This document shows positions 14,906 to 52,110 of a DNA stretch of 64,000 nucleotides, one piece after another; position 1 is the first letter of the stretch; each line of letters starts with the position of its first letter. The position numbers were made by a program, and so were the translations under genes. The notes below the pieces were generated by a model. The model had not been told where the DNA came from. It made no database searches and worked only from the letters and a program-made list of their open reading frames with translations. This stretch comes from Styela clava. Its lineage: Eukaryota; Chordata; Ascidiacea; Stolidobranchia; Styelidae. The stretch covers positions 3,472,001 to 3,536,000 of the forward strand of contig NC_135252.1 of NCBI RefSeq assembly GCF_964204865.1. Reading direction: 5' to 3'.

Positions 14906-14913
14906 GTTCTCAG
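14906..14913. other. Left 8-bp target-site duplication (gttctcag) of the composite segment
   Basis: gttctcag lies directly before the TAGGGTTAG terminus of A1 and is repeated exactly after the right terminus of A2 (52103-52110). Eight-base duplications are the rule for hAT transposition. Confidence 0.7.
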
Positions 14914-16184
14914 TAGGGTTAGTTCGGATACCTATAATTTTCACTATCCGGATAACGGATATATCCGGGTATTCCGTATTTTAAATATACGGTTAACCGG
15001 ATAGTTACTGCTGATTTTAGAGAACCGATTTCGCAGGATTTTCGCGGTGAATTGAACGAATGCCAACACACAGTTCTATTGTAAATACTCACATATGTAT
15101 TATTTTTCTTGAATATGAATTATTCTGCATTTTAATATTGCATGTGTCAATAAATAATAATTTAAGCTCAGTAGTCGTACCGATGTACAGCGGAATAATA
15201 AAATGAAACATTTTTTGAAAATATTGTGTCCTAATTTTTTTTCCCCCCAACTGCTAAGTTATTTTCCCTATTCAAATAATATGTAAAGATTTATATTATT
15301 TCTACTTTATTGTAAAGTTTTTTAAAAGTTTCTTTTTGTGTCTAGAGCCTCTTTTCTTTAGATTTTGACTCGTACTAAATTTTAGTGTCGCAGACTCACA
15401 ATGATCATTTCTGATCATCCGCACCTTCCTATCAATTGCAATGAAATTTAATATTGTCATGTATAGTATTTTGTTTTCTATAATATTTGGTGATTTCTTG
15501 CACGACGAAATAAACTTTGTTAATATATACCACAAGAGCATACATATAAATGAAATCATGAACACAAAAAATCGTGCATTTCGAACATTTTATTTCGGTG
15601 AGAGAAGTATCCAAAAAATAGAATATAGGGGGAACAAATTCCGTGAAGTGTATAGGAAAATATAAGTCATTTGAACAAAAATTTTAATAACAAAGCAAAT
15701 TGATGATTATGAAAAAACCGAAGTGGTCAGAAATTTCTTCTAATTTGAAAACTTCACTTATTTAACATGTCACTGCAAATATTCTCACGTTCGTACTAAT
15801 TAGGCCACAACTTTAAATCTATTTCCATTTGAATACCTTTTAAACTAAATTAACAGAGCCAAAACAATGCTGCGCCAGTTTTTGAACAACTTTACTTACC
15901 ACTCTAAATGAGTAAACGAAAAACATGACACGATACAGAGTCTGTCACATCAATGACATTAAACAACATGATAGGCAACTCTGACGTCACTCCGTAAGAC
16001 TAGAAGCAAAAGATTGTATTTCATGATACGCTCCAATGCACATATTTCTCGTCGCCTTTCGCGACCGTTTTCAGCTCGCTTTTGCTACTCGGCGTCTTCT
16101 TTACGTGTAGTACCTGCCCTTTTGCGACTGTAACAAAAGAAAATAATCTCTATATCTAAGAAGTTTTACTCACTTGGAAAGCTG

Positions 16185-16500
16185 GAATGGCAGACAAGCT
16201 GTAAAGAGCAATTCTGGACATCATGGACGTTTTTTACCAGAGAAGATTACAAACGCGATAGCGGAAAGATTTGTGTGGAACATTTTGCAGATAATGACAA
16301 ATTTCAAAGTTAGTAATTTTAATGTTTGCGCTTAAACATTGAAATTTCATTTGAAGAGGGTGTCATACAGGACAGCAAAACTGTTTTTACTTCTCCTAAC
16401 GGTGCTGTGATACAATTCCATAACACAAAGTTTGCACCAATCGAACTTGCTTTTGTAGGTGAATTAATTAGACATATTACATATTCAGTTAATCGTAGGT
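16185..16500 (+). pseudogene. Degenerate THAP-domain transposase fragment
   Basis: One frame reads FTREDYKRDSGKICVEHFAD near 16230-16300, the second half of a THAP zinc finger (Cys-x2-His-Phe). The same frame resumes after stops near 16314 and continues to about 16500 with VIQDSKTVFTSPNGAVIQF before a possible gtaac donor. THAP fingers bind transposon ends in P-element transposases. The upstream Cys pair is not clearly visible and no full-length transposase remains; a cellular THAP gene fragment is less likely because it sits inside defined terminal repeats. Confidence 0.55.
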
Positions 16501-17275
16501 AACATTGCTGGTACATAATGCCTCGTAGATAGGTTTGTTTAAATTTAGGAATTCAGCTCATAGCCCAATAATTAATATTATCTTCTGTGCAAGAGGTTGC
16601 AGAGCTGAATTCAACTTGCAGCCTTACCGATCACCTGACCATGCTCATTTAGTTTGGCTCGAGCAAGTCTTCTTGAAAGACTTGTGTGAATGGAAACTAC
16701 CTATATGTTTTACCTTCCTCCGATTTTAGAAGACAAATTTATTCTGAGGGATTTCGCATATAATTCTCATTGATTATTGGCTGTTTATAATTCCTATTAA
16801 TTGTGAATTCTGATTATAACAAAGAGTTAAAAAAAAAATTACGTAATTTACTGGCACCTCTTTCTTGTCAATACTCCAAGTCCAAGCTGAGGTAATAAAC
16901 AAGACAATACATTTATGTCATCTGGAAGCAAAATATGCACACTAATTAATAGTTTGACACATTGAGATAATACATCATGACAGAAAATACAAGTTAAAGA
17001 TATGTTTGACCGTCACATGGTAATTAAAATTAAAAAAAAAATTATTAGCGGCTATGGAGTATGAAAAGTTCAAGACAAAGAAAAGAACAAGAGTTTATAG
17101 CTCATGAACTCTCAATTTTGCCTCCATTGCTTTGTGAAGGCCAAAATATTTTGAGTGGCTGAATTGGTTTACCTTTATGATGGCAACGATTTTGTATTTA
17201 ATATAGCAAGATTTTTTTCAATTTAATTAAAGTGATATTATTTCCCAGGCAATGCTTGAATCGTATAGAATAGAT

Positions 17276-18452
17276 CAGTGGTGTCAAACTCATGGGTTTT
17301 TGAGAGCCGCATTGCGTTTTGGAAATTGTAAAAAGGGCCGCAAACAGTTTTCGATAATGTATACTTGAAAGATATTTTTAAGATAGTTTTAGTTTGTGAC
17401 ATATGTTGTGATGCAACTAAACAGTTGGATTAAGTTTCATTATTTTCTTTAATTTCAAATGCAATTACATATTAATATTTGCATTCCACTATTATTGCAC
17501 GTTACTGTATTTATTACAAAAAATTATAAAATTCTATGTACAACCATCAAAATCATTTTTGAACAAACTTTGGATAAGGAAAGAATAATACACACTAAAA
17601 ATGACTTAATTTAAATATATGAACCTAAAATTAACAAAAATACAACAGTATAAACTCAATGTTTTTTTAATTACATTTGTCCTGACGTTTGGTATCTTTT
17701 TTGTGTCACCAGCATACTAAGGCCAGGCTGAAATGATTTTATAGTACCAACTCTAACTAACGAGGTCACATGATCATGGGCTAATCTGGATCTTTGCGAC
17801 TGTTTAATAAATTCCAGTAATGCAAAAAAGTTATTTTTATAATTTCATGTATAGATCAGTAAAAAAACAAATGACAGATTTTTTTGACAAGACATTTTGC
17901 ACCACATTGCGTGGCATAGGATTGCTTGAAATATTATTGATATTGATTTTTAGTAACTAAGTCGTTGTATAATTATATTAATATACAAATACATGAAAAT
18001 TTTCTGTTCAAAGTTGCTCTTCGAATTTGTCATATTGACTGCTGAGCTTATTGCGTTTTTTCATTGTATTGATGGAAATATGACAAATTAAACAATGTGC
18101 TTCAGAATTTTGTGAAATGCAGAAATATTGCAACTCTCCATTTTCTTTGAAAATACCACCTTCTTCATGTACTTTGCGTTTAATTTAATCACTCAAGTGT
18201 TTTATTCAAGTATTCTTTTGCTAGCTTGATGTGTATTCTTAATTGGGTGAAAATGTGAACAAAAAAAAATTAATATTTCAAAACTACTTTCAGTAAATTG
18301 TTTTCTGTGTGAATAATCAATTTCACTTTAAAAGGTTTGAAAAATCTATTACATTTAGATAGAAAAAAGCTTCCAAAATGCTATTACAATTATTGCTAAG
18401 CGTTCGAGGGCCGCACTGGAAGTTCTCTGGGGCCGCGAGTTTGACATCCCTG
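17276..18452. mobile_element. hAT element nested in the P-like element
   Basis: Ends cagtggtgtcaaactc and gagtttgacatccctg are inverted repeats, with ggccgc motifs just inside both. Flanks gaatagat (17268-17275) and gtctagat (18453-18460) match at six of eight bases and fit the nTCTAGAn preference of some hATs. No transposase frame is visible in its 1.2 kb, so it is a non-autonomous copy. Confidence 0.85.
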
Positions 18453-20810
18453 GTCTAGATTGAAGTTGTCCAAAATATATATAACAGTATTTTATCATGA
18501 ATCATGATTATACCCTTTCCTGAATTTCTTCTATAGTACTACCAAAAGTTGATGGACCAAATATAACACAGGTGTAGTGAGTTACCCGTAATCCTCATTT
18601 TCCAAAGCTATTTTAAGTATGTCTTGCGTGTTTTGTACCTTTTTACAAATAGGACCGCTTATGCAATCTCACGCTTCAGAATTTTTAGTTATTTTCCTTA
18701 AGCCATGCAGGATGTGGGGGCCATACACAACTCTACCGGAGGGTCAAATGTCTTTGCATGCCTCCATAGGTTGTTCTTCTATTGCAAACATTTATGGAGT
18801 ACTCTAATTATATTTCTTGGAATCACACGGTCACTGGTATGTCGCCAGACTTCTGATATCTTCCCTTCTGCTATAATTGTCCTGTGAATGAATGATAGGA
18901 AATTGAGATTAGACGATTAGTTGAAACTTTTGCTTTATGTCGGCTTAATTTCTTGATTGATATACGTACTATTTTAGCTATTGCCTCTTGTGCTGCAGGA
19001 GTCTCACAATGCTTAGACAGGTTTGTCCACAACATTCACATCTGAAGAAAGAGAGGAGATTTATTAATTTTCGTCAATAATAAATGAAGCAGTCTATATG
19101 ATTTAGAATGGAAAAGCTAATAAATCCAATAAATCATGTTTAATGTAAAAAATGTTTTACTGAATTTGGTATATAAACCAACTAGTAAAGGGGTTTAGTC
19201 AGAAAATTACAAGCATTCGTGGCTCCATATACTTGAGAGATCAGACTATACAATATAGACCGGTATGAGTGAAATGTTAGGTGAACTTGTTAACCCTTTG
19301 ATTCAATCCTCACTGATTAAAAAAAATCTAAATGGAGGTGCATGAACTATTTGAAACCATAAGGGGTAAGTAAATATGCAATTTCGGCAAATGGGCAACT
19401 ACGTACCGTACTGAATTAATAACTTCGTAGTATATGACAAAAGCTGGCTTTCCCACATGTTCTTAACAGTGCGATGCCCGGGTGTGATATACAACAATAG
19501 TATTTACCTTACCTTTTTCCGATTTCTTTTTACCTCAACTTTCCAAAATATCATTAAAATCGACTGTCAAAACTGTCAAAGCAGGCACGAACACCATTTG
19601 TGCCACTGCTATGCCTTGAAAGCAGCACACATCCGCTCGTTTTCGTCTCGTCAAGTATGTGCATTGGAGCGTGCTATCGGATACGATCTTCGGCCAAAAA
19701 TGCCGGAGTTGCGCATCATGTTGTTTAATGTCATTGGTCACATTAAACTTTTCTGAAATATTATAGACCATTTTGCAAACAAATTTGTTTGTGAAAGTTC
19801 CATGAAAACCATAAATGTAATAACAGCCTTTCCTCCTCATTTTGAAATTTTCGAAAACGTCACTAATAAAGGCGGTCGAATTTTACAGGCTAATTGTGTT
19901 ATCATCGCCGATCGTTTTCTTCCGCATCGCGTTATTATTTGGGGAATTAACATCGGCATTATGCCAGTTTTAATTTGAAAAGAAGTTACACCCCGTGAAA
20001 AGTTACCCTTGTTGTAAATTCAGTAAATACGATTATTACGAAATTTTGGCGATTCAACAGCGCCTAAAATAGAGTCTTGTTTTATCTATCACTGGCTCAT
20101 AAATCAAGAGTCGTGGTATTTTCGTTAGCATTCAATTCCTTATTGTCAGTCAAAAATGTGTGTTTCAGATCTACTCTCTTAACGATAGATAGATACGACG
20201 ATAGATAACATACTGCGACCATTTCAGTTCCGGGCGAAATAAAACAATTATCGGCGTTATATACCGACGAAACTGAACCCGACTTTTCTCCCGGAAATGT
20301 TGATATATAACTATAAGCTAATTAATATCTGCATTTATTGTACTAAATAAATTATACTCATTGGAATTGCAATAATAGCTCAAATTTGATGAATTTTCAA
20401 GATAGCAAAAATAGGAAATTGGATTTGTTCGTGCAGCTTACCATTTATTTTCATATCTAGAGTAGAAATGCTTTTATTTTAAGGTAAGTCGGGCTCTTCT
20501 ATACCGCAAATACGCAATAATCACATTTTTCTGCGTGTTTTGTGATGTAATACTATAGTCAAGTTCTCTCCAGCATTACACGAATGACTAAAATATGCAG
20601 AGTGGTGTGGATATAAGTGAATATTATATGCTCTGAGAGATGTCATTGGCCACTCAACAAAAAATATAAAAATCACTAATGCGCATATGCATTATTTATA
20701 CTGCTCTATTATCCGGTTAACCGTTACAATAATATCCGGTTATCAGATAGCAAAATACCTCTTGGTTAATCGATTATCCGGTTAACCGCTATCCGGATAA
20801 TCCAACCCTA

Positions 20811-21143
20811 ATTATCACTCACCATCACCGAAGTGCTGTCCGCAAACAGTGAAACACAATCGAGATGACTTCTGGACTTGACACCAAGCAGTCCTGCCAA
20901 TAGATGATATCTACATTGCGCGACGTTCCGGATCTTTTCAAAACAGAGGAATATAACTGAAGATCCATTTCGTTGTCTATACTATACGTACAGCCAACGG
21001 AACAATACGAAATAGCCATTTTCAACAGCCAAACAAAACGGAAACGTATAATCCGACTTGCAACTGACAGGAGCCAAATGGACGTTTTGGTTTTTTTGCC
21101 GTCCAGTAAACAAAGTCACGTGACCCGTGCAAGTCTTCTATAC
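20811..21143. other. Inner flank of A1, no assigned gene
   Basis: The sequence begins attatcac directly after A1. A 66-codon minus-strand frame (20825-21025) includes Cys residues but no domain I know. It could be an exon remnant; I see no firm splice or homology support. Confidence 0.3.
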
Positions 21144-22681
21144 CAGGGGTTCTCAAACTTTTGGTGTTGCGGAGCCCTTGGAAAGTTGAATATTATTCGC
21201 GGAGCCCCAAAATAAATTTTAAAATTGTTACCTCAGATTAATATACCCGAGCAAGTTAAAAGTACTTTATTTATTTCAAATGCTGAACCTTTTTAATAGG
21301 GTTAACACAAGGCATAAATCTAAATTTTATACTAAAGCTGTAAATTTGACACTTGACGGACATATTAATAAATTAGGGATCGAATCTTTTCTTTTTTGAC
21401 ATTTTTGGAAGACTTAATTAAAATGCCGTTAGTAACGTGCGCTATTTCATTTTGTTACAATCGCCGATTTTTTCCGTCAGCATGGCGTGTTTTAAACATC
21501 TTTACGCCGCTGTTTATTCTCCCCAAATCAAAAATTTCACTCGGCATATACATGTATTGTTACACAATGACGACGTTAATTGCTTTTTTGTTCTCGTGGG
21601 GAATTATGAGTTCAATGTGAAAAACATGTTACCATATTATAGTCATCGGCGACAAAATGCTAAAAATAATAATCAATAAAGAGATAAATCCACAACTCAA
21701 ATTTCTTGATTGAAAAACGGCATTCTAAAATATTAAAACTGAAACTTAAAATGGAAGATCACACTTCGGTTTCAGCAGACTCACCTCAGATTGAAAACGC
21801 TTCTATAGACATTGTAAATCACAAAATTTGGTGTTATGTTAGGTTTTCATCGTAGTAACTGCGAAATCGAAACACAGTCAATTGTGCGCGCGATTTACCT
21901 TTATTTTTCATCAATCAACCAATCAAATCGTTTTTTGTTAGCCATCTCGGAAAAGCATAACAAAATTGAAAACAAGTAAGATCACAAAAATATTTGTACC
22001 GGATGGCAGGATAACCGCGCATTCTGAAACTACCGACGGAGCTGAATGCAATAAAATAATTTGCAATTGTTCGTATTTTGCCCAGACATTGTGATTTTTT
22101 AAACGGCGATATCTTGCTTAAAAATAATCTCAAGTGCGAAAGAACAAATCAAGTTTGACAAATCCCAAGATCGCAAAAATACGACCCCAATTTATTTATA
22201 GTTGGCAGTTTATCACATATTTTATGTTATTTTAGAATAGTATTCTTACACTTTAGTAATCCTAATAGTAATCTCGAATCAAACGTGAGTAACGATGAGC
22301 ACAACTACATTATAACGACGAGACACGTCAAATGCTCCATCGGTCATGGATTGAATATTTTACGCAACAGAAATCTCGTTATCCGTTTTTTTAATCGCGA
22401 AGAATGTTGCGCGGAAATTTCCGATTCCAATTTTGAACCACCTCCCTCTTAAGAATCCTGGCTGCGCTACTGCTCATAAATAATGTCATTTTTTAATTCC
22501 GCCCCTTTACCATATTTCGAGGCTATATTGTTGTCAGATTTTATCAAAGCTGTTATTGGTTCTTTGAACAGTTACAAAATTTTGAGTCAGTATTTTGAAG
22601 AGTAATCGTATAGCTCGCGGAGCCCCTGGGTTTCTCTCGCGGAGCCCTGGGGCTCCGTACGGAGCACTTTGAGAACCTCTG
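21144..22681. mobile_element. hAT element, 1.5 kb
   Basis: Left end caggggttctcaaacttttg; right end cactttgagaacctctg, an inverted repeat. Repeated cggagcccc motifs lie inside both ends. The flanks ttctatac (21136-21143) and ctctatac (22682-22689) are a 7/8 target duplication. Internal frames show no transposase. Confidence 0.9.
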
Positions 22682-22689
22682 CTCTATAC

Positions 22690-22941
22690 CTAGATTGCGC
22701 AACGATGTAAATTGGCGCCATTTTCGATCAACGTCGCCTGCGATCTTACAGCGGTTCTGCGTGATCCTCGCCCTCGGCTAGGCTGTTGCCTTCTGCTAAT
22801 AAATGAAGGGTCGCTCGGCTCGGGAATGGCAAAACAGTGCAACTATTGAAGCTATCAACATACGGTATGCCGGCAGAAGAAACAAATGGGAAAATAATTG
22901 TAGGCGACGTCGAGACTGGAAATATGGATTCCCTGAGCCAG
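22690..22941 (+). other. CpG-rich stretch with a candidate first coding exon
   Basis: This short segment is richer in CG than its surroundings and has ggcgccattttcg, which contains the YY1-type core gccatttt often seen at animal start sites. An ATG at 22867 opens 25 codons (MPAEETNGKIIVGDVE...) ending at a CAG/gttagt donor (22942). No following exon could be matched, so a real gene is only suggested. It lies about 21 kb upstream of the transporter exons; both junctions are phase 0, but nothing else links them. Confidence 0.3.
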
Positions 22942-23022
22942 GTTAGTCAAACGAATGACCTAATATCAAGCTGATACCAGCGAAGACAAGCTAATGGTCT
23001 ACAAATACCTCCAAGATGTACC

Positions 23023-23449
23023 GGGTCTAGTATAGTTTAGTACCACAAGTACTTCCGGTGGGCGTAGCATAACGAATTTTGCATATGCTATTCCTAACCC
23101 CCACCTGACTATGCCATCCAAAAATTACGTCACTACGACGTCACCATCACGTCATAGGGATTGCCAAAGTATAATTACGATCGCCCGAAATGTCATCTGC
23201 GCCGCCGATAACGAACTTGTTAAAGCCGGCGATCTCTCTCCTATCGTGATCGTTGTGACAAGAAAACGGGAGAAATTGCTTGCTCGATTTCGGGTGATCG
23301 TCTGCGTGTTTTGGACGACAATCCGCATACTTCGGTGGGCCTTATTACGCCACGGTGACGTAGTCAGGTGGGGGTTAGGATTGACATATGCAAAAATTGT
23401 TGAGCCAGGTCAACTAGAAGTACATGTGGTACTAAACTATACCAGACCC
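23023..23449. mobile_element. Palindromic MITE, 427 bp, with perfect 8-bp target duplication
   Basis: The two arms are inverted copies over most of their length: gggtctagtatagtttagta at the left, its near-complement ending ccagaccc at the right, and the tcaggtgggggttag arm in between. gatgtacc flanks it on both sides (23015-23022 and 23450-23457) without mismatch. No coding capacity; the long frame crossing it is an artefact. The intact duplication implies recent insertion. An 8-bp duplication suggests hAT mobilisation. Confidence 0.9.
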
Positions 23450-25516
23450 GATGTACCGATACTAGCACTATAGGTAGACTTACCATAATTTCTTGGGCAT
23501 AATCCGGGACAAACTCAAAACTATGAATGAAATAACTGGACGAAAGGCCGGCGGCCTGAGCTTTGCAAATTTTTATTCCATATTTATATCTATAAGCTTT
23601 AATATTGCATTACTCTACAGAATCTCAAGTTCTAGATTACTTTCAGCATAATATGACTCAAACAAAACCAAATGAAAGTTATTATGCCTTCTCCAACTCC
23701 AAGCATAGTAAGGCTTCTGATGCAGCAATTGCTGTAGTTTCATTGGAGTCAATAGAATAATGACGAAATTAACGTCACTCAATATTCCCTAGCCAAAGGA
23801 TTTCTCAAGATATGCGCGATATTTTACTCAACCTAATAAGCCAAAAAATTTAGATATAAGCCTCGAGTTAAAGTTATGCCTTTTGGGACGGAATTATTCA
23901 TAATTTTGCATAAGGTCGGAGTTAATTTTGAAAATTTCACTAAAGTAAAATTCCGGGACATTTTGCTAACCGGGACGGGACACCGGGACAGACGTTTAAA
24001 CCGGGATGTATGGTTGGTCTAACTATAGGCCCTAGTCTAATCTTACTCAAGGACATGAAGACATAAATTGCCCAATTTCTTGTGAGAATTGAATTTGAGC
24101 GGAACTTTTACACAAGCTGAATCTTCTAAAACATCCTCGCGAGACTTTTTGTCAGTTAGGTTATTGGTTTTAATAATAGGCAGAAATTACCTTCTTCTGC
24201 TTATATTTAAGCCAAGAGATTACTTCATTTTAAAACTATTGTGTTGTGCAATCACAAATAGCCTACAAATTTTATCAAATTTAGTTCACTAGATAAAATC
24301 AGGATTTATGTCAAAAGTTTCAAATGCCAAATTTGGCGTAATTTTTAATTTGTTAACTGTGAAACAGAAAGAGAACCATATTTGTTGCAATATTTTCATT
24401 TTGAAATTGTTTTTAAAATCAATGGAATAATTGTTATCCACAACCTGGCTATTTACCAGACATTTTATGTCCGCAGATTGCCCACACATTTTATATGCAT
24501 TTTATATCCGTGGTATTTTGATAAAGTATGCTAGTAGGCCAAATGATTTTATTTTTTTCTATGCAGACTCAGCCATGGGTTACGTTAAACAAAATTAAAT
24601 TAATATGGTAAGGCATTTTGAATGCTGGTATTGTTCTCGGATTTGAATATTTTGCGCAACAGAAAATCATCCTAGTAAAATTCGATACTTTTAACTATCA
24701 TTATCAAAATTATTTGCCACGAAGCAAGAAAAGGTATAAATTATATTTATTTAGTGAAGAATAAATTTGACAGATTGCCATGTTTTGCTATACAACTTTG
24801 GAATTTGTATCTTGGAAATTGGTGTCCTAAAAGTAATAATAATATTTAATATTTGATCTAAACTAATCGCAAATAATATTGTAACATTTACCGCCTGGCT
24901 TTTGGTTTACATCATTTTTTGGGAAAACTCACAGGTCGCAAAACATAATATAATGTAAAATAAAGCAAGGCATTTCTATAAAATATTAATAAAGATTGCT
25001 GCAATCACGTTATCAGAATATCGCCACTAAGTCGCTGCTGTTCTGAATATGCCACTTGAGATTACCATGTTTGCTGATTTCACAGTTTTTTTTTTCGCAA
25101 AGGTATGCAAGTAATATTAAACCAGTGAGATTTCCACGTGGGAGAAAACGCTCATATTTGAATATTAAATTAGAAACCTGAAATAAAAAAATTGACGCGT
25201 GGTGATGAAGAGGCAGAAACCGCAACCTATTGTCAGATCCTGCTAAATTCTAATCCTCCGGATTCGGTATTCTGAATTGCCCATCCCTAACTATGATGGA
25301 CATATTATTAAGCTAACCAATGTTATTAAGTATATTCAATCAATTATTATCATACTTAATTGAATGAAAAACATTTCTTGGGATTCTTCACGGATCTTTG
25401 TAGCTTATTAATAAATAATAACTTCACAGAATGGCAAAAATATGCATGAAAAATTAATTATAATCGGGCAGTTTACCACACATATTATGTCCGTAGATTG
25501 CTATGGTATTTAAAAG
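23450..25516. other. Repeat-derived intergenic sequence
   Basis: No gene recognised. Pieces near 24410-24490 and 24600-24690 recur in inverted orientation at about 31750-31840 and 31540-31640, showing a dispersed repeat family. Confidence 0.45.
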
Positions 25517-26401: not shown

Positions 26402-27210
<809 letters not shown>

Positions 27211-33052: not shown

Positions 33053-36000
33053 ACAGAAATAAGTTTTGGCTTCGACCCTTGGGCTAGAATCAAACAAAAA
33101 TAAGTTTAAGCTTGACCCAACAGCAATAAGTTTTGGCTTAGACCCTTGGGCTAGGATCAAACAAAAATAAGTTTGGGCTTAGACCCTTGGGCTAGAATCA
33201 AACAAAAATAAGTTTAAGCTTGACCCAACAGCAATAAGTTTTGGCTTAGACCCTTGGGCTAGGATCAAACAAAAATAAGTCTGGGCTAGACCCAACAGCA
33301 ATACGTTTTGGCTTAGACCCTTGGGCTAGGATCAAACAAAAGTAAGTTTGGGCTAGACCCAACAGCAATAAGTTTTGGCTTAGACCCTTGGGCTAGGATC
33401 AAACAAAAAAGTTTGGGCTAGACCCAACAGAAATAAGTTTTGGCTTAGACCCTTGGGCTAGGATCAAACAAAAATAAGTTTGGGCTAGACCCAACAGCAA
33501 TAAGTTTTGGCTTAGACCCTTGGGCTAGGATCAAACAAAATAAGTTTGGGCTAGATCCAACAGCAATAAGTTTTGGCTTAGACCCTTGGGCTAGGATCAA
33601 ACAAAAATAAGTTTGGGCTAGATCCAACAGCAATAAGTTTTGGCTTAGACCCTTGGGCTAGGATCAAACAAAAACAAGTCTGGGCTAGACCCAACAGCAA
33701 TAAGTTTTGGCTTAGATCTTTGGGCTAGGATCAAACAAAAATAAGTTTGGGCTAGACCCAACAAAAATAGGGTTTTGGCTTAGACCCTTGGGCTAGGATC
33801 AAACAAAAATAAGTCTGGGCTACCCCAACAGCAATAAGTTTTGACTAAGACCCTTGGGCTAGGATCAACATAAATAAGTTGGGCTAGGATCGAACAAAAG
33901 TAAGTTTGGGCTAGACCCAACAGCAATAAGTTTGGCTTAGACCCTTGGGCTAGGATCAAACAAAAAAGTTTGGGCTAGACCCAACAGAAATAAGTTTTGG
34001 CTTTTGACCCTTGGGCTAGGATCAAACAAAAATAAGTTTGGGCTAGACCCAACAGCAATAAGTTTTGGCTTAGACCCTTGGGCTAGGATCAAACAAAATA
34101 AGTTTGGGCTAGACCCAACAGCAATAAGTTTTGGCTTAGACCCTTGGGCTAGGATCAAACAAAAATAAGTTTGGGCTAGATCCAACAGCAATAAGTTTTG
34201 GCTTAGACCCTTGGGCTAGGATCAAACAAAAATAAGTTTGGGCTAGATCCAACAGCAATAAGTTTTGGCTCAGACCCTTGGGCTAGGATCAAACAAAAAT
34301 AAGTCTGGGCCAGATCCAACAGCAATAAGTTTTGGCTTAAACCCTTGGGCTAGGATCAAACAAAAATAAGTTTGGGCTAGACCCGAAATAAATAAATTTT
34401 GGCTTAGACCCCTGGGCTAGGATCAGACAAAATATGTTTGGGCTAGACCCAACAGCAATAAGTTTTGGCTTAGACCCTTGGGCTAGGATCAAACAAAAAT
34501 AAGTTTGGACTAGACCCAACAGCAAGAAGTTTTGGCTTACACCCTTGGGCTAGGATCAAACAAAAATAAGTTTGGGCTAGACCCAACAGCAATAAGTTTT
34601 GGCTTAGACCCTTGGGCTAGGATCAAACAAAATAAGTTTGGGCTAGAACCAACAGAAATAAGTTTTGGCTTAGACCCTTGGGCTAGGATCAAACAAAAAT
34701 AAGTTTGGGCTAGACCCAACAGCAATAAGTTTTGGCTTAGACCCTTGGGCTAGGATCAAACAAAAATAAGTTTGGGCTAGACCCAACAGCAATAAGTTTT
34801 GGCTTAGACCCTTGGGCTAGGATCAAACAAAAATAAGTTTGGGATAGACCCAACAGAAATAGGTTTTGGCTTAGACCCTTGGGCTAGAATCAAACATAAA
34901 TAAGTTGGGCTAGAATCAAACAAAAGTAAGTTTGGGCTAGACCCAACAGCAATAAGTTTTGGCTTAGACCCTTGGGCTAGGATCAAACAAAAATAAATTT
35001 GGGCTAGACCCAACAGAAATAAGTTTTGGCTTAGACCCTTGGGCTAGGATCAAACAAAAATAAGTTTGGGCTAGACCCAACAGCAATAAGTTTTGGCTTA
35101 GACCCTTGGGCTAGGATCAAACAAAAATAAGTTTGGGCTAGACCCAACAGCAATAAGTTTTGGCTTAGACCCTTGGGCTAGGATCAAACAAAAATAAGTT
35201 TGGGCTAGACCCAACAGCAATAAGTTTTGGCTTAGACCCATGGGCTAGGATCAAACAAAAATAAGTTTGGGCTAGACCCGAAATAAATAAATTTTGGCTT
35301 AGACCCTTGGGCTAGGATCAAACAAAAATAAGTTTGGGCTAGATCCAACAGCAACAGGTTTTGGCTTAGACCCTTGGGCTAGGATCAAACAAAAATAAGT
35401 TTGGGCTAGATCCAACAGCAATAGGTTTTGGCTTAGACCCTTGGGCTAGGATCAAACAAAAATAAGTTTGGGCTAGATTCAACAGCAATAAGTTTTGGCT
35501 TAGACCCTTGGGCTAGGATCAAACAAAAATAAGTTTGGGCTAGATCCAACAGCAGTAAGTTTTGGCTTAGACCCTTGGGCTAGGATCAAACAAAAATAAG
35601 TTTGGGCTAGACCCAACAGCAATAGGTTTTGGCTTAAACCCTTGGGCTAGGATCAAACAAAAATAAGTTTGGGCTATACCCAACAGCAATAAGTTTTGGC
35701 TTAGACCCTTGGGCTAGGATCAAACAAAATAAGTTTGGGCTAGACCCAACAGAAATAAGTTTTGGCTTAGACCCTTGGGCTAGGATCAAACAAAAATAAG
35801 TTTGGGCTAGACCCAACAGCAATAAGTTTTGGCTTAGACCCTTGGGCTAGGATCAAACAAAAATAAGTTTGGGCTAGACCCGAAATAAATAAATTTTGGC
35901 TTAGACCCTTGGGCTAGGATCAAACAAAAATAAGTTTGGGCTAGACCCAACAGAAATAAGTTTTGGCTTAGACCCTTGGGCTAGGATCAAACAAAAATAA

Positions 36001-37080
36001 GTTTGGGCTAGACCCAACAGTAATAAGTTTTGGCTTAGACCCTTGGGCTAGGATCAAACAAAAATAAGTTTGGGCTAGACCCAACAGAAATAAGTTTTGG
36101 CTTAGACCCTTGGGCTAGAATCAAACATAAATAAGTTGGGCTAGAATCAAACAAAAGTAAGTTTGGGCTAGACCCAACAGCAATAAGTTTTGGCTTAGAC
36201 CCTTGGGCTAGGATCAAACAAAAATAAGTTTGGGCTAGACCCAACAGCAATAAGTTTTGGCTTAGACCCTTGGGCTAGGATCAAACAAAAATAAGTTGGG
36301 CTAGAATCAAACAAAAGTAAGTTTGGGCTAGACCCAACAGCAATAAGTTTTGGCTTAGACCCTTGGGCTAGGATCAAACAAAAATAAATTTGGGCTAGAC
36401 CCAACAGAAATAAGTTTTGGCTTAGACCCTTGGGCTAGGATCAAACAAAAATAAGTTTGGGCTAGACCCAACAGCAATAAGTTTTGGCTTAGACCCTTGG
36501 GCTAGGATCAAACAAAAATAAGTTTGGGCTAGATCCAACAGCAATAAGTTTTGGCTTAGACCCTTGGGCTAGGATCAAACAAAAATAAGTTTGGGCTAGA
36601 CCCAACAGCAATAAGTTTTGGCTTAGACCCTTGGGCTAGGATCAAACAAAAATAAGTTTGGGCTAGACCCAACAGAAATAAGTTTTGGCTTAGACCCTTG
36701 GGCTAGGATCAAACAAAAATAGGTTTGGGCTAGACCCAACAGCAATAAGTTTTGGCTTAGACCCTTGGGCTAGGATCAAACAAAAATAAGTTTGGGCTAG
36801 ACCCGAAAGAATAAATTTTGGCTTAGACCCTTGGGCTAGGATCAAACAAAAATATGTTTGGGCTAGACCCAACAGCAATAAGTTTTGGCTTAGACCCTTG
36901 GGCTAGGATCAAACAAAAATAAGTTTGGGCTAGACCCAACAGAAATAAGTTTTGGCTTAGACCCTTGGGCTAGGATCAAACAAAAATAAGTCTGGGCTAG
37001 ACCTAACAGCAATAAGTTTTGGCTTAGACCCTTGGGCTAGGATCAAACAAAAATAAGTTTGGTCTAGACCCAACAGAAAT
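33053..37080. repeat. Minisatellite of 67-bp units, about 60 copies
   Basis: The unit alternates two related half-units, aagttttggcttagaccctt... (about 41 bp) and aagtttgggctagaccc... (about 26 bp). The period is not a multiple of three, so the repeated minus-strand frames are not protein. Variant units recur: a cgaaataaataaatttt type near 34384, 35280, 35881 and (in a shorter form) 36804, and a short aagttgggctagaatcaaac type near 34900, 36130 and 36295. This indicates internal block duplication or conversion. Confidence 0.95.
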
Positions 37081-37089
37081 AGATGCTAT

Positions 37090-40140: not shown

Positions 40141-40413
40141 TATTTCAGTAGCCAAAGAGTGTGTTTGGGTGTCTTGCGGCATTGACCTAGCTCCACTCTG
40201 TTAGATTAGATCATTATACATGTAAGCTGACTGGGTAAGTGGAGCTTTTATGATTTTTATCTTATCAATTGTGTGACTTATATTTATGATTTGGATGCGC
40301 ACACAATAGATAGCCTATCTGTTAGAATAGTCAATATTTATTGGGTCATCGAATCTTTCTTCGGATGACCCAATAGTGCAATTACATGTTTACACGCATT
40401 TCACATATTTACC

Positions 40414-40489
40414 ATGGAAATACCTTTGCTGAATCGGATTCTAGTCAGTCTGGTTTTCATGACAAGTGTGCGATTTGGTAGCGCTGAAG
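40414..40489 (+). other. Candidate signal-peptide exon
   Basis: An ATG in good context (accatgg) opens a leader MEIPLLNRILVSLVFMTSV, then a GSAE end and a g/gtagga donor (phase 1). A possible next exon begins after the ccag near 40710 and stays open for about 25 codons to a TGA near 40785. The product is unknown. It could be a small secreted protein or chance. Confidence 0.3.
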
Positions 40490-42836: not shown

Positions 42837-42926
42837 CAAAAATAGAAAACCCAACAACGATAAAATACAATAAGCTCTTTTGTAAACAGATCCAACTACA
42901 TTCAGAATTTTTTCTATACTTCTCAT
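42837..42926 (-). other. Candidate minus-strand first exon
   Basis: On the minus strand an ATG opens 30 codons, MRSIEKILNVVGSVYKRAYC then a hydrophobic end, stopping at a strong ttg/gtaagt donor. The pattern (KILxxVG before a membrane segment) recalls the start of SLC22 transporters, yet it lies opposite to the transporter gene downstream. No second exon was found. Confidence 0.25.
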
Positions 42927-44221
42927 TTTATTTACGACAACCGATCCATATACCTTGCAAGAATTGCTACTTTGGTCGTTCTGAATCGCCGTCGTCTACC
43001 TCCCTACTTTACGTCATTTCAACCGTAGCCTACTATTTAGTGCAATTATGCGTAATTTTCTAGAATACGTGTTGGAGTCGAAGGCAACGATATTTCAGGA
43101 TCGAGTTTCACAACCGGTCAACAGCTTTGCTTCGTGTATTTATTTAATCGTGTAATTATCCGCCTTCTCAACTCGTTCAATCTGTCTGTTCTAATTTTGT
43201 TAGAAATAGCTAAAGCGACCGTGTCAGAAAGTTATTTCTAGATGTGACTTTAAGGCAGCAGATTTAATCAATCGACAAGACCGGAAACTACATGCACAAT
43301 GTCAACAAAAAGTTGCATTGGTTAACAAGCAACGCTCCACTTCTGTGATAATAATAATTCTATGTTCGGCATAATATGCAAACAGCCATACATTAACCGA
43401 ATTATCGACAGATTACGTGCGTATCGCTTCAAAATATATTTAAATTCCCCGTATAGTAATACCACGTACAAAGTTATTGGGTCGTCATATCGCCAGCGGC
43501 TTATTACAGAAAATTAATCAAAAGAATTTGTTGGCGTTATAAGAACCGAATCTAGACGAGATAGCAACTGAGAAATTATGTAAATATTTTAAATCTCCAA
43601 AATATTGAATGTGCTAAAAGGCGACCAACAAAAATCTTAACGTTTCACTGTCATTGTAATGATCAGATAAATTGATAGAGTATTCGTGGAGGTATTAGCA
43701 ACTGAAGTTGAAAAGATTTTTCATACCAGCTAAGATAGCAAAAATATCATTATAGATATGTTGAAATAGTATGCAGTACAAAATTGCACTATACTATAAA
43801 TGTTATCTTCATTTACCTTCAGGTTTAATTTCAAACTCTGGTGCTGAAACCTTGCCATGTATATGCAGACATAAAGGCAGTTAAGAGTGATAAAATTGAT
43901 ACTATAAATACTAATATATATATTTGATGAATAATATTGATGAGACTCTTAATAATGAAGTGGGGTCGGTCTCCAGTCGAGCGTATATTTTCTCTCTTCG
44001 TTGGCTTTCCTTTTTCGGTAAGAAAAATATAGTCATTTGCGAATAGCTGTAAGATTTTCAATTGAGACTTCAATAACTTAAATCTAACAAAGCATTGCAT
44101 AATTAGTAGCAAGTATTGGCAAAAATATAGAATCGTATATATACTAAACAATACAAAATCGCATAGTAATGAATAATTTAAACAAAAATCTGACAAAGTA
44201 TAATTATTTTTTATTATTTAG

Positions 44222-47200
44222 TTGTCGAAACCCCCTGATGTGATTTTATTGGTGTTTTCTGCTGCGCCGTCGACAGTCTTTGATGACAATCCACACGCTC
44301 AGGGCGCAGAAATCATTGTGTCCAAGGTAACGTAGTTTCATTTTATTAAGTGAACAATCTAGGGATTTCCCGTTTTTTTTTTATATACATTGATTTAGTA
44401 ATTCACGTATTTTGGGATCATGTTATGTAAAATTTGATTTTCAACTAATATTCGAAATCACTATAGTTAGTCGTTATGCTTTCTTTATTGCAAAAATACT
44501 TTGGTGGGATTTAACTGAAGATCGCAGTTGGATACCAGGCTTCCTTCAATCAATTTTTTACGTAGGTTTTATGCCTGGGACTATCGTTTTTGGACAATTA
44601 TCCGATCGCTATGGAAGAAAGAAAATTTCGGTTATAGGTGAGAAAATTTATTTGCGACTTCTGCGATTTTAAAGTAATTAAAAAGAGCATTTGAAATATA
44701 TTTTCAGGATACATATTAGTTCTGATATTTCAAGTTATCAGTGGATTTTGTCAAAATTGGCAACAATTTGCAGTATGTAGAGCTATATCAGGCTTCCTTG
44801 TTGGCGGTTTAAGTGTTGTGACAACTATACTTATACAAGAAACTACGGGATCGAAGCTTTGGGTCCTGAACGGTGAGTACAAATGACTCCAATTCCGTTT
44901 ACTGGTACAACAGGAATTGCTTATATGACTTTCATATGATTTTAATCCAAAATGAATAAATAATAATTGCGAAAACCAATAAGCTCGACAACAGCTATAG
45001 GACTGAATGAATCTATTTTCAGGTGCTCTCGGTGCAATAGGATTCACCGCAAATATGTTAGCGTTTCTATGGGTTGCCTATCTTTATCCTAGTTGGAGAC
45101 AAATGTATTTTATTACAACGATACCTGGAATTCTTGGATTTGTTTTTTTATAGTAAGTGAAAAAATACGTTAGTGAATATATTTGAAGATATAAATTGCA
45201 TTTTCTCAATATTGATAAAATATGGCAAAGTCCGAGGGAAAGCGAATGGATCTCAAGCTTTCATATCGAGGATGTTTAATTTTTTGTATTATTTAACGAT
45301 GGTGAATTGGATATAGCATTGTGAAATATTTATATATCCCGTGCTAGTTCTGTCGAAATGCCAATATTTTCAATACTGCTAGTCCATACATTAGTAAAGT
45401 TTAAGTGCATATTACATGAAATTGATGCAGAAATTTAGCTTAACACCTTTCAGCATTGTCCCAGAGTCGCCGCGTTGGCTGTTGTCTCGCGGTAAACCAG
45501 ACAGCGCAGAAGAAGTGATGCAAAAACTATCAAGGTGGAATGGATCGCCTCACACAGGTATTTTATATTATATATATATATATATGTGATTATGAACAAA
45601 TATTTTGGATGCCCGCAAATTTGAATATCACTCAAAGATATTTGCTTACGAAAAACAAAAAGTAAATCACATGTGTAATTGCTGATACGTAAATTCTCCT
45701 ATAATATGATTCTAATATTTCAATAACGCTTGATAATTATTATTAATATATTAAGAATATGCTCTTCTGCCGGGGAACGCGAAAGAACGCCAAGATGAGG
45801 GACATCAAAATGAAAGTACGTATCTATCAAACGCGGATTAAATAATTCTAGATATACGTTTTTTTTAAAACATTCTCACAAATGAAATTCACAAACACAG
45901 AATCTTCTAACCAGCTTCAGAAGATTTTAGAACAGCTATCTTGCCAATGTCGACATCAATAGAGATGAAAACGTCAATGAAGGCACGGGATGAAATTATT
46001 TTAAACTCGTTTTAAATACCGTTCCTGGATGAAGTCAGATCTAGATGAACACTTGAATGAATGTCAAGATATTATATTTTTAACTTCCCAAAAGAAACAT
46101 TTACATCATAGGACAGAATTGCTGAACAGTTGCAAATGTAGGGATTAAACAGAATCCCCAGGATTGACTGACCAGAGTGTCGTTGACCTACTCTGACTCG
46201 TAATCTTAAGCCCACGCTTTACCTCTCAACACCCACGCGAATGAATAGACGTTAAAACCTCTATTTGATTTCATTCGTAGTTTTTCACGATATACAGAAT
46301 ACAATTTTAAAACTCCTTAAAACTAGAATCGGCTCACATTGAAAATCTATTGAACGGTATATATGTACGTTGATCAAATAACGAATTAACATTGAAAACG
46401 TGACCTCGTGATTCACGCCATGAACAGAAACTCTTATTAATTAACTCTATACGGGTAATTATGTACGTCGTGCGGATGGGATGTGTTTAAAATTTCTGAG
46501 AAAATGATATGACACAACGAAGTTGTTCTTGGAAGCTAAAGTTGTGTAACTTGTTCCTACGAAACTTAAAAGTTCCTACTAAACTTTAAAGGTTATATTT
46601 CACTAGATCGTCTAATGCTACAACAAAATTATGAATATGCACAACAAGAGCAAGATGCCTCAAGAGACGAGGAAGGCTCAATTATAAATTTGATAAGAAA
46701 ACCTGTATTGCGATACAGAGCAGCCATTTTAAGTTTACAATGGTATGTATAATTTTGCATAGCTAAAATTGACATAATAACATCCGTAATGTGTATCTAT
46801 ACGATCAATCTAAATGAGAGTTATACCGAAATGAAATAGATTGACCAAATATTGTTCGAGTATTTATATAAAAAAATAGCCATGTGTGAAATCCGTCTTC
46901 ATTGTATATCCGGTTAGGTTTGTCTATCTTGACTCAAATCACGTTGTATTTTCAGGTTCACCGCAAGTTTTGTATTTTACGGCATAACACTTGGTTCTGG
47001 ATCTTTTAGTTCAAATTTTTATGTTGCATATTTAATATCGGGATTGAGTCAGCTTCCATCAATACCCTTTACGATTTATCTTATGGAGAGAAGATGGTAA
47101 GCCAATACCATAACAGGAAAAAATCTCGAACTCACCATTTGTTTTGAACTTTCCTAAAAATCACGTAGTCAAAATCTGGGACTGACAGGCTGATAACTTG

Positions 47201-49138
47201 AATGAGTCCACCAAAAAAAAACATCTATTCGTTCTACTGGTAAAAATTAACCTACAAAATAACCGCAAAATAAAGCGAGAATCGTTGAAAGTGAATGAAC
47301 GAACAGATCATATGACCTTGAAAATGAGTAAAGGCATCGTGGTGAAATTATAAACCGGCCGCGGGATTATATTTATATACTGATATATTTGACTCCATAA
47401 AAAATGGCCACATCCATAGAAAATAAGCAGCAAATGCTATATTATTAGTATATAACGCAAGAAATTGAAGAGGTGTTGCTAAGTATACTCAGTTGATTGT
47501 ATTTGTTCAATTCTTATCCCCATATATATATATAGTTTTAATCGATTTACTCAATACAGGGCTGGTAGAAGACGAACGCTGGTCTGCTTCATGGGTTTAG
47601 ATGCACTGTGTATGTTCGTCATGTACATCGTTTCCTTCGGCCAAGGTAATTTCAAATATTTACCTGAGAATAGCAACCTTACAAATTTGAAAATATGTTT
47701 TTTAATGTAATTACTTGGATGCCTACTGAACAGAACAGTTTTCGTTAAGTCGAAATGATGCTTGCGGACCCACAATAAAGTGCTGTTTACGAAATTCTAT
47801 AACATAAACAGAATTTCAGGCCAAATAGTCTGTCATGAAAATATACATTTAAAGATTCGAACGAAAGTAAAGTACATAATACATAAAGCGGGGCCTGGTT
47901 GGAGCAATTTAATTAACTGCTCTTCCATGGTAAATCCAGTTTTAATTGATCAAATGTATTTTAATTATATAGTGTAAATTTTGTCTCAAATGACTATAAT
48001 ACATACGTATTATAAATTGCTGTAACTGGAAGATAATCTGTTTAACTGGAATTAGCTATAGCCGATTGAATGAATTTTTTTATTTCTCGTTAGACATCGT
48101 AAAAATTTTTTGATCTTTCATAGAGCTTCAGCCTTCATAAACCATCCCGTTTCAGTCGACAACAAACCCGACCAAATTATTTTGGTAAAAACAATAATAT
48201 TACTTTACTAAAATGTAAATCTGGAAATAAATGTAGATAAACAGAAAGATTAAATTACCGTTTTTCATTCAGATCGCTCAAACTACAAATTGACACTTTT
48301 GGTTTTCGGAAAACTGGGAATTTGCGGAGCTTTTGATCTTATTTAGATATATACTGCAGAACTCTTTCCAACAGTTGTGAGAAACGTTGGACTGGGCTCA
48401 ATGTCGTTCTGGGCAAGAGTTGGTGGTGTAATTGCTCCATTTTTAGCAAATCTTGCGGTAAGTTTTTTATGAGAAGTACTATTGTGCAGCATCTGAAAGG
48501 TAACGGAACAAATATATCGTTGTCGTTATTATTGGACACGTTTAGTGGACATAACGATCGTTTTGTTGTTATGTTGTTCTTGTTCTTGTTGTTATTTGAC
48601 ACTTTTTGGACACCTAGTGGAAATATTAAAAAACCGCTTTTCTCTTTGATCACTGGACCAATTGCTTTGAAATTTTTAGTGGTTAAAGATGGAATTTTTC
48701 TCCAGAAGGCTATTACTTTTATTTATTTCAAATATTTCTGTTAGCTCTGTGAGATTTGTTTTTGTTTGCTATGACGTCACCGAATGTTCTGCGGGCATTG
48801 GAAGCCATTTTGTGTCCTACTGTACTGCTTCGCTTGGTGTGAATATATTTGTAGACTGTGATATGACGGAACGGAAACCGTACTGTACTGCGAACAGACG
48901 TGTCCATATATTTGGGCGTAGCTCTCTTGTTATCGTTTTGTGATTTCTTTTTCATTTGAAGGTGTTTTCTGGACCGAATGACCCATTTCTTGCCTTTGGT
49001 ATTGTGGGATTATTGAGCAGTGTTTTTGCTGCTTTCCTCCCTGAAACCCGAGCCAAGTTAATTCCGAACACCTTTGAAGAAGCGGAACTACAAGAAGAAG
49101 ACAACGACGAAAATAGTTGTAATTCGATAACATGCTAA
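44222..49138 (+). CDS. SLC22-family (organic ion/carnitine-type) transporter, 5' end missing, possibly a pseudogene
   Basis: Exons: 44222-44326, about 44505-44637, 44708-44872, 45023-45152, 45454-45557, 45756-45815, 46607-46742, 46956-47096, 47560-47645, 48273-48457 and 48962-49138 (TAA). Family marks: [18 protein letters not shown], the MFS motif [46 protein letters not shown] with [10 protein letters not shown], and [16 protein letters not shown]. It is a 12-helix plasma-membrane transporter; the substrate cannot be told. The exons for helix 1 and most of the first extracellular loop were not found. Two oddities: the WDLTEDR exon has no AG at the frame-correct start (44505), and an in-frame TAG (48344-48346) interrupts helix 10 between AFDLI and IYTAEL where the family has a Tyr. 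Phases of all other junctions agree. It lies inside the 37-kb composite. Confidence 0.85.
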
Positions 49139-49190
49139 CATTGACTATGTCCTCTACACTAATTGAATATAGTTATTGTGTATCCTCTTG

Positions 49191-49196
49191 AATAAA
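49191..49196 (+). terminator. AATAAA polyadenylation signal of the transporter gene
   Basis: Canonical AATAAA 53 bases after the TAA stop. Confidence 0.7.
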
Positions 49197-49609
49197 TTAT
49201 TGTTTATCGTGTCTTTTCTTATTTTTGTTTTTCGGAATTGAAAAAAACGGCACGATGAACTTTGACTTGACTTTTCATGACGCAAATTAGCCGTTAGAGA
49301 CAAAAATCAAGTTTTATTCTTCAAACTGCTAACAAGTGCCAACGGCCAACCAAAACAAACGAATATTTAAGGAAATGGGTCAATAACCAAGAGCAGTTGC
49401 CCAGCCTTCCCACACAAGCAGACCTGTATCATCAAATAAAACGTACAGGCGGACTACGATAGCAATTTTAATAATAACACGAAAGAAACAGAAGAATACG
49501 AAAATTAGATCAAACTGCATTTCAAAGGTCATGTCATGGCTGATTTCGCTATTGCTATGATTTTAAGCAGTACGAGCGCGGCCCCTCAATTTTTCAACTC
49601 AAATATAAT
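49197..49609. other. Downstream flank of the transporter
   Basis: AT-rich sequence; nothing recognised before the SINE. Confidence 0.4.
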
Positions 49610-49900
49610 AATATGGCGCGGCGTTGTGGATCATCATACGCTCGCCACCGCATCTCTGATTACTCTGCGGGATTCGCAGGTTCGAATCCCATGCGGGGAT
49701 AATTGTGTGCAAGAAGATTGCTGGACTCATCGCGACTTCCTCTACCATCAAATCCATGCTACCGAAAACAAATACCGTAACTAACTAATCCCATACCCGA
49801 CATGGAATGGTAACCGGACGAGAGGCCGTGGTTCGCCATATGGTTAAGCCGTCTTGTCGACTTTCCTCTCCCCAGGGATAAATATGTAAATCCTATAACA
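49610..49900 (+). repeat. tRNA-derived SINE
   Basis: The head has a tRNA-like organisation ending in the B-box ggttcgaatcc (about 49679-49689), preceded by a tggcgcggcgttgtgg stretch that may be a decayed A-box. A body follows with accgaaaacaaata and taaccggacgagaggc, shared with 39998-40140. A functional tRNA is unlikely because no clean cloverleaf with a 3' acceptor stem is present. Confidence 0.65.
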
Positions 49901-49943
49901 GACCTTCGGAGATCAGATTGGCGAACATTTTATTCCTCATAGA

Positions 49944-50052
49944 CAAGCGGTCGGCAACCTGCGGTTCCTGAGCCGCATGTGGTGTGTTGTTCTTTGGCTC
50001 CCGTGAATCAAAGTGGCGGCTACAGCAGATTTTTCTTAGAAGCAGTGGGGAT
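49944..50052 (+). repeat. hAT-type 5' fragment cut by A2
   Basis: Begins caagcggtcggcaacctgcg, with a gagccgcatgtgg motif, like hATs with ggtcggcaac ends. It is interrupted after 109 bases by the TAGGGTTAG end of A2, so A2 inserted into an older hAT. Confidence 0.55.
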
Positions 50053-52102
50053 TAGGGTTAGTTCGGATACCTATAATTTTCACTATCCGGATAACGGATA
50101 TATCCGGGTATTCCGTATTTCAAATATACGGTTAACCGGATAGTTACTGCTGATTTTAGAGAACCGATTTCGCAGGATTTTCGCGGTGAATTGAACGAAT
50201 ACCACCACACAGTTCTGTTGTAAATACTCAATTATACAATTTAAGCTCAGTAGTCGTACCGATGTACAGCGGAATAATAAAATGAAACATTTTTTGAAAA
50301 TATTGTGTCCTAATTTTTTTTTCCCCAACTGCTAAGTTATTTTCCCTATTCAAATAATATGTAAAGATTTATATTATTTCTACTTTATTGTAAAGTTTTT
50401 TAAAAGTTTCTTTTTGTGTCTAGAGCCTCTTTTCTTTAAATTTTGACTCGTACTAAATTTTAGTGTCGCAGACTCACAATGATCATTTCTGATCATCCGC
50501 ACCTTCCTATCAATTGCAATGAAATTTAATATTGTCATGTATAGTATTTTGTTTTCTATAATATTTGGTGATTTCTTGCACGCCATATTAAACTTTGTTA
50601 ATATATACCACAAGAGCATACATATAAATGAAATCATGAACACAAAAAATCGTGCATTTCGAACATTTTATTTCGGTGAGAGAAGTATCCAAAAAATAGA
50701 ATATAGGGGGAACAAATTCCGTGAAGTGTATAGGAAAATATAAGTCATTTGAACAAAAATTTTAATAACAAAGCAAATTGATGATTATGAAAAAACCGAA
50801 GTGGTCAGAAATTTCTTCTAATTTGAAAACTTCACTTATTTAACATGTCGCTGTAAATATTCTCACGTTTGTACTAATTAGGCAACAACTTTAAATCTAT
50901 TTCCATTCGAATACCTTTTAAACTAAATTAACAGAGCCAAAACAATGCTGCGCCAGTTTTTGAACAACTTTACTTACCACCCTAAATGAGTAAACGAAAA
51001 ACATGACACGATACAGAGTCTGTCACATTAATCTTTTCCGAAATATTATAGACCATTTTGCAAACAAATTTGTTTGTGAAAGTTCCATGAAAACCATAAA
51101 TGTAATAACAGCCTTTCCTCCTCATTTTGAAATTTTCGAAAACGTCACTAATAAAGGCGGTCGAATTTTACAGGCTAATTGTGTTATCATCGCCGATCGT
51201 TTTCTTCCGCATCGCGTTATTGTTTGGGGAATTAACATCGGCATTATGCCAGTTTTAATTTGAAAAGAAGTTACATCCCGTGAAAAGTTACCCTTGTTGT
51301 AAATTCAGTAAATACGATTATTACGAAATTTTGGCCATTCAACAGCGCCTAAAATAGAGTCTTGTTTTATCTATCACTGGCTCATAAATCAAGAGTCGTG
51401 GTATTTTCGTTAGCATTCAATTCCTTATTGTCAGTCAAAAATGTGTGTTTCAGATCTACTCTCTTAAGTCTTAACGATAGATAGATACGACGATAGATAA
51501 CATACTGCGGCCATTTCAGTTCCGGGCGAAACAAAACAATTATCGGCGTTATATACCGACGAAACTGAACCCGACTTTTCTCCCGAAAATGTTGATATAT
51601 AACTATAAGCTAATTAATATCTGCATTCATTGTACTAAATAAATTATACTCATTGGAATTGCAATAATAGCTCAAATTTGATGAATTTTCAAGATAGCAA
51701 AAATAGGAAATTGGATTTGTTCGTGCAGCTTACCATTTATTTTCATATCTAGAGTAGAAATGCTTTTATTTTAAGGTAAGTCGGGCTCTTCTATACCGCA
51801 AATACGCAATAATCACATTTTTCTGCGTGTTTTGTGATGTAATACTATAGTCAAGTTCACTCCAGCATTACACGGATGACTAAAATATGCAGAGTGATGT
51901 GGATATAAGTGAATATTATATGCTCTGAGAGATGTCATTGGCCACTAAACAAAAAATATAAAAATCACTAATGCGCATATGCATTATTTATACTGCTCTA
52001 TTATCCGGTTAACCGTTACAATAATATCCGGTTATCACATAACAAAATACCTCTTGGTTAATCGGTTATCCGGTTAACCGCTATCCGGATAATCCAACCC
52101 TA
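50053..52102. mobile_element. hAT-like element A, copy 2 (A2), uninterrupted
   Basis: A 2.05-kb copy with the same TAGGGTTAG and CAACCCTA ends and subterminal ggttaaccggata motifs as A1, same orientation. It lacks the P-like insertion and so shows its empty site. Small frames (50519-50743, 51003-51263) are shared with A1 but not recognisable as transposase. Confidence 0.85.
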
Positions 52103-52110
52103 GTTCTCAG
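52103..52110. other. Right 8-bp target-site duplication (gttctcag) of the composite segment
   Basis: Exact copy of 14906-14913, directly after the CCCTA end of A2. Confidence 0.7.

Follow-up and report, generated by a model that had tools for sequence, protein, structure and literature searches.

An SLC22-type gene between paired hAT-like elements in Styela clava: evidence for macrotransposition in an animal genome

A locus in the ascidian Styela clava allows a test, in animals, of the idea that ordinary non-autonomous transposons mobilise entire genes and tens of kilobases of DNA. In a 64,000-nucleotide stretch of its genome (RefSeq assembly GCF_964204865.1, contig NC_135252.1, positions 3,472,001 to 3,536,000 of the forward strand; hereafter the window), two copies of a hAT-like element, A1 and A2, flank a cargo segment with an SLC22-type transporter gene, and one octamer stands at the outer end of each. 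Did the two elements and the cargo arrive together? We find the A1-cargo-A2 block at four targets, and the octamer differs from one to the next (GTTCTCAG in the window; CTGTAGAC, ATTATCGC and GTTCAGAT elsewhere). We therefore regard it as very probable that 14914-52102 is a macrotransposon, in which the left end of A1 and the right end of A2 were used as the ends of one transposon, at least four times. The genome searched was the window's own assembly (376.6 Mb), and genes were read from open frames only.

The block in the window and the family of element A

The block and its target consist of the following parts (window positions, with strand where one was assigned).

14699 to 14913: left part of the target, a dispersed-repeat copy ending in the first GTTCTCAG, from paralog alignments; the longest match starts at 14699
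14906 to 14913: left outer 8-bp target duplication GTTCTCAG, from the window read and the empty-site match
14914 to 20810, plus strand: A1, hAT-like non-autonomous element, interrupted, with ends TAGGGTTAG ... CCAACCCTA, from the A1/A2 alignment
15951 to 19736: 3.8-kb DNA transposon within A1, with terminal repeats CAATGACATTAAACAACATGAT and a 7-bp duplication, GTCACAT
20811 to 20818: inner flank ATTATCAC, followed by a repeat with 635 candidate places
20811 to 50052: cargo between the A copies, about 29,000 bases, with colinear pieces elsewhere
21145 to 22681: repeat in the window cargo, absent from five other cargo copies read (L002, L005, L019, L023, L024)
33053 to 37081: minisatellite, 4 kb, unit of about 67 bp
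44490 to 49135, plus strand: SLC22-type transporter gene, exon pieces
50045 to 50052: inner flank GTGGGGAT, the cargo end
50053 to 52102, plus strand: A2, second direct copy of the hAT-like element, from the A1/A2 alignment
52103 to 52110: right outer 8-bp target duplication GTTCTCAG
52103 to 52129: right end of the same target repeat; five joint-spanning alignments end at 52129

The original prediction described two hAT-like copies in direct orientation with a shared octamer at their outer ends, and a transporter gene and a 4-kb minisatellite inside, and the window bears this out: the copies align directly, with 35 differences over 2042 aligned bases when the 3.8-kb insert is omitted, the outer octamers are identical at all eight positions, and both cargo features are present. 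It further stated that the inner flanks match nothing, which holds within the window; genome-wide it does not, as both recur beside other A copies.

The octamer GTTCTCAG occurs three times on the plus strand of the window and not at all on the minus strand. Two random window octamers would agree with a chance of 3e-5 (from base composition) to 8e-5 (empirical), or 3.4e-4 given the family's target preference (a profile from 12 perfect duplications of solo copies). Independent insertions of A whose octamers matched by chance, with no joint movement, would account for window A1 and A2 each being without a matching duplication of its own. We consider this scarcely credible: even the highest of these estimates is small, yet the match is seen at four targets, and empty paralogs show the outer flanks directly joined; the C13 copy described below likewise contradicts a chance match. 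A single A insertion followed by tandem duplication was rejected, the DNA to the right of A1 being unrelated, within the window, to that to the right of A2.

With A2 as query, at least 76 matching pieces were found (40 of 368 candidates scored), and 30 A loci were read with their flanks. The short terminal inverted repeats of hAT transposons begin C/TAGGG-like, as in Ac, and the termini of A, TAGGGTTAG and TAGGGTTGG, agree with this, with ATCCGG and GGTTAACC motifs close to both ends. Identical octamers flank 12 of the 30 loci (L003, L008, L010, L011, L015, L016, L018, L021, L022, L025, L027, L028), and octamers one or two bases apart flank five more that lie outside the composite group (L013, L020, L026, L029, L030); the remaining 13 are the composite group or its ATTATCGC target. 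The target preference of hAT transposons is nTnnnnAn, and the twelve perfect duplications follow it: eleven have T as their second base and nine have A as their seventh. Both inner octamers, ATTATCAC and GTGGGGAT, fit the same two positions and are probably the old target octamers of A1 and A2. Copies of A lie 0.4-1.1 % from their consensus, except L026-L030 at 1.6-3.5 %, a pattern as after one burst. Within A2 there is one 89-amino-acid open reading frame, which has no Pfam match, and no stop-to-stop frame exceeds 95 amino acids.

The inner junctions recur. Seven of the 30 loci have GTGGGGAT to the left of A (L001, which is window A2, and L004, L006, L007, L009, L012 and L017), and ATTATCAC lies to the right of A in L002, L005, L019, L023 and L024, likewise in window A1; exact whole-genome searches returned seven junctions GCAGTGGGGATTAGGGTTAG and eight junctions AACCCTAATTATCACTCACC.

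The composite at four targets, and empty paralogs for three

In the window, two A copies of one family flank the cargo in direct orientation, and at all four targets a single target duplication lies at the outer ends of the block only; the outer octamers agree at eight of eight positions in the window, on C13 and at the ATTATCGC target on C4, and at seven of eight on C17. The composites span, from A end to A end, about 37 kb in the window, 27, 31 and 38 kb on C4 and 45 kb on C13, and 36 kb on C17, where A2 is lacking. Those parts of the cargo that were read on C13 and C4 are about 98.4 % identical to the window.

On C13, the right end of the composite (L007) reads from the cargo end through GTGGGGAT and A to CTGTAGAC, and the other A copy, about 42 kb away, starts directly after CTGTAGAC. 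In this A1, a short insert follows the first 11 bases, and a copy of the transposon found in window A1 is present, presumably with an LTR element as well (229-bp repeats, 99 % identical); the cargo start comes next. One transposon has thus struck the same 7-bp site within A in the window and on C13 (L039/L040, C13:6.8645-6.8795 Mb), in opposite orientation, and on C4 the interruption of a third A copy lies within some 20 bases of that site, which is perhaps an insertion hot spot. We rejected the shared insert as proof of common descent: the two are inverted relative to each other, with 213 differences over 3672 bases (5.8 %) as against 1.5 % between the A1 copies, and therefore look independent.

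On C4, three complete pairs (L002/L012, L062/L017, L023/L004) have ATTATCGC on both outer sides; since these may be duplicates of one insertion, ATTATCGC is counted as one target. The cargo next to L004 is without the part from about 42.3 to 49.8 kb. Further cargo copies at the ATTATCGC target are incomplete in that A1 is absent (L045, at 1.93 Mb on C19; L050 and L051, at 0.34-0.40 Mb on C13), and their joints ATTATCGGCATCACTCACC and ATTATCTAATTTATCACTCACC look like hAT excision footprints. Another incomplete cargo copy, on C14, is without A at both ends. A tandem array, as the GTGGGGAT-A-ATTATCGC junctions might suggest, was considered and dropped, since ATTATCGC marks the outer ends at a repeat target of which empty copies exist. 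This target also recurs every 36-44 kb or so at C13:0.87-1.03 Mb; one of these units holds a solo A, and four others are empty.

On C17, A1 is present (L024) with GTTCAGAT as its left flank, A2 is absent, and the joint at the right end reads GTGGGGA-c-TTCAGATCTTAT. Excision of hAT transposons leaves footprints, and this joint fits such a pattern; the octamer agrees at seven positions rather than eight (right side GTGGGGA-c-TTCAGAT) because A2 is missing with this footprint-like joint. A T-box exon (Pfam T-box, E 3e-17) adjoins the composite in a duplicated stretch (L070/L080, C17:13.7368-13.7399 Mb).

The original prediction called for a site where the outer flanks meet over a single octamer, and such sites were found, as paralogs, for three of the four targets. 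With the window flanks joined over one GTTCTCAG, the resulting 26 bases are matched at 102 places with at most three mismatches, and the control at none. In ten of these places the sole mismatch is at the first base, which leaves GTTCTCAG intact in all ten; some places with two or three mismatches have changed octamers, and one listed three-mismatch match is the window's own A2 junction. All five of the one-mismatch paralogs fetched align across the joint; the alignments run 19 to 207 bases leftward and all end 19 bases to the right of GTTCTCAG (window 52129), which places the composite near the end of a dispersed-repeat copy. Similarly, the ATTATCGC flanks are joined over one octamer at 13 places (at most two mismatches; nine exact), the reversed-pattern control giving none, and both paralogs fetched can be aligned through the joint, with about 93 % identity. 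For C17, the flanks meet over one GTTCAGAT in a neighbouring duplicate, with 406 bp aligned at 93.6 %.

The recurrence of the block could also reflect large-scale segmental duplication, or an assembly error that put the cargo between A copies. The ATTATCGC composites do sit in a repeat that is itself multi-copy, and repeats are frequent break points of assemblies. However, the outer flanks next to the A ends in the window, on C13 and on C17 match neither each other nor the ATTATCGC flanks, and the breaks fall exactly at A ends with octamer duplications, so that an error would need to recur with matching octamers; we consider this explanation improbable.

Proposed transposition as one unit, and recombination as the alternative

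We propose that two A copies would have inserted in direct orientation on either side of an SLC22-bearing segment, and that a hAT transposase supplied in trans would then have acted on the left end of A1 together with the right end of A2. The whole unit would have moved into a dispersed-repeat copy between MCCC1 and a TBL2-like gene, duplicating GTTCTCAG, and the same unit at least three more times, to CTGTAGAC, ATTATCGC and GTTCAGAT; single A copies would later have been lost from some composites. The action of a transposase, its choice of ends, the order of moves and excision as the route by which the missing A copies were lost are what we infer from the arrangement of these loci. Movement as a whole unit predicts just such features: inner junctions that stay constant, a single octamer that is duplicated at the outermost ends alone and differs among the four targets, and outer flanks that are contiguous where an empty paralog exists. 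The earlier suggestion that the block moved as one unit is thus supported by composites at three other targets with octamers of their own, and by the empty paralogs.

The same anatomy is predicted by another route, in which a resident solo A with ordinary octamers lay at each target, and a circle of one A plus cargo, formed by recombination between A copies at a donor, recombined into it, so that the cargo was never moved by transposase. There is a solo A at the ATTATCGC target (L014), and Galileo of Drosophila is a documented case of DNA transposons that recombined ectopically and exchanged their duplications (PMC2775673). However, this route takes two rare steps, a prior A and a hit by the circle, at each of four targets; the ATTATCGC loci read comprise one solo A against three complete composites, with 13 matching empty places, and the 30 A loci read include none that is solo at any of the other three octamers, in a single assembly that cannot show alleles. 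We rate circle recombination lower because a resident A is needed at every target, and consider it unlikely, although less so than duplication or misassembly.

Several observations weigh against transposition of the whole unit. No intact donor was found: none of the 30 A loci has ATTATCAC to the left or GTGGGGAT to the right of A, so that the donor locus foreseen in the original prediction, with these octamers flanking the same cargo, is lacking among the loci read. The solo A just mentioned (flanks ATTATCGC / ATTTTCGC) is what the recombination route would need, or what would remain after A1 and A2 had recombined. For the C13 target no empty paralog was found (0 matches at up to three mismatches), and the cargo ends read on C14 and at C17:19.2 show no A and no matching octamers. 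No transposase was found for A, an autonomous partner not having been searched for. A1-type and A2-type copies are too similar for a test of chimerism, no variable site telling the two groups fully apart, and all loci come from one assembly.

The SLC22-type gene, its dispersal and known macrotransposons

The best match of the cargo gene among solved SLC22 proteins is solute carrier family 22 member 12 (E 4e-22), in keeping with an SLC22 relationship. Cargo pieces are widely dispersed: a query from the 5′ part (24.0-25.8 kb) matched at least 16 places, some of them partial, at 95 % or more, on C3, C4, C13, C14, C17 and C19 (40 of 1891 candidates scored); the query 43.0-49.35 kb gave long matches at at least 15 places, one on C2 (40 of 4458 scored), and 37.93-39.9 kb matched in or near the same regions (40 of 72 scored).

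The C2 locus is a more diverged relative. There, pieces of window 37.9-50.05 kb match at 92-98 %, and the cargo end continues past GTGGGGAT into other sequence, without A. This joint fits an uninterrupted parental site, with an A2 excision product as the alternative, and C2 may be the parent, as a candidate for the 3′ part of the cargo only. We do not claim it as a certain donor, as C2:29.4 is not among the listed matches to 24.0-25.8 kb, for which 40 of the 1891 candidates were scored.

Codon changes were compared between the window and other copies, roughly, since the exon pieces may take in intron edges. Against C13 (six exon pieces) there was 1 synonymous change and 6 others, against C4 likewise 1 and 6 (one indel-bearing piece omitted), and against C17 1 and 8; against C2 there were 12 and 10, that is, more silent change. 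With few synonymous relative to other changes among them, the mobile copies of the gene look, from sequence comparison, unconstrained.

We also favour, with more reserve, a wider reading, in which paired hAT copies form an established animal composite transposon family with a unit of about 27 to 45 kb, which has spread the SLC22 gene and minisatellite to about 15 places on at least six contigs, largely as whole units and once beside a T-box gene, so that natural macrotransposition would be a working route of gene dispersal in animals.

Paired-hAT macrotransposition was worked out in maize, where Ac/Ds macrotransposons were reportedly the subject of work by Huang and Dooner in 2008; here, an animal genome holds the same composite at four targets, with empty paralogs for three. 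In maize, Ac macrotransposons measuring 10.3 and 28 kb have been described that excise or insert anew, with duplications of 8 bp (PMC9910405). The likeness lies in two hAT elements whose outer ends are jointly used, 8-bp outer duplications and footprints after excision; unlike those plant genetic stocks, the present case concerns non-coding 2-kb elements and composites of about 27 to 45 kb in an animal. The White Cap locus of maize is reported to have arisen by a macrotransposon insertion, with ccd1 amplified afterwards (Tan et al. 2017 via PMC6553525), and is similarly a natural insertion linked to a host gene; whereas amplification there was in tandem at one crop locus after insertion, here there is dispersal to several contigs. 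Galileo of Drosophila buzzatii (PMC2775673) shares paired DNA transposon copies and reshuffled target duplications, but its exchanged duplications flank an inversion and its copies were shown to be chimeric, whereas here direct copies share one outer duplication. In an animal, macrotransposition was invoked by the authors for AgaP2-P12MITE of Anopheles gambiae (PMC1562414), in proposing how a small MITE (miniature inverted-repeat transposable element) arose, unlike the gene-bearing composite with duplications at several targets found here. Among the literature passages and listings searched on macrotransposition and macrotransposons, no natural gene-bearing animal case was found. An outer octamer, a paralogous empty site and recurring inner flanks together make a practical test for any long-read genome.

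To the left of the block in the window lies MCCC1, whose best solved-structure match is methylcrotonoyl-CoA carboxylase alpha (E 4e-80), and to the right lie WD40-repeat exons, putatively TBL2-like. Nested in the transposon inside A1 is a further hAT-like element (17280-18455), whose ends, as judged by eye, are CAGTGGTGTCAAACTC ... GAGTTTGACATCCCTG. Immediately to the left of the composite, on the minus strand, is a transposase remnant with a Pfam DDE_Tnp_4 match (12593-13003), which we take to be of Harbinger type. Upstream of MCCC1, an imperfect tandem repeat (3557-4215) comprises two 162-bp units and their relatives.

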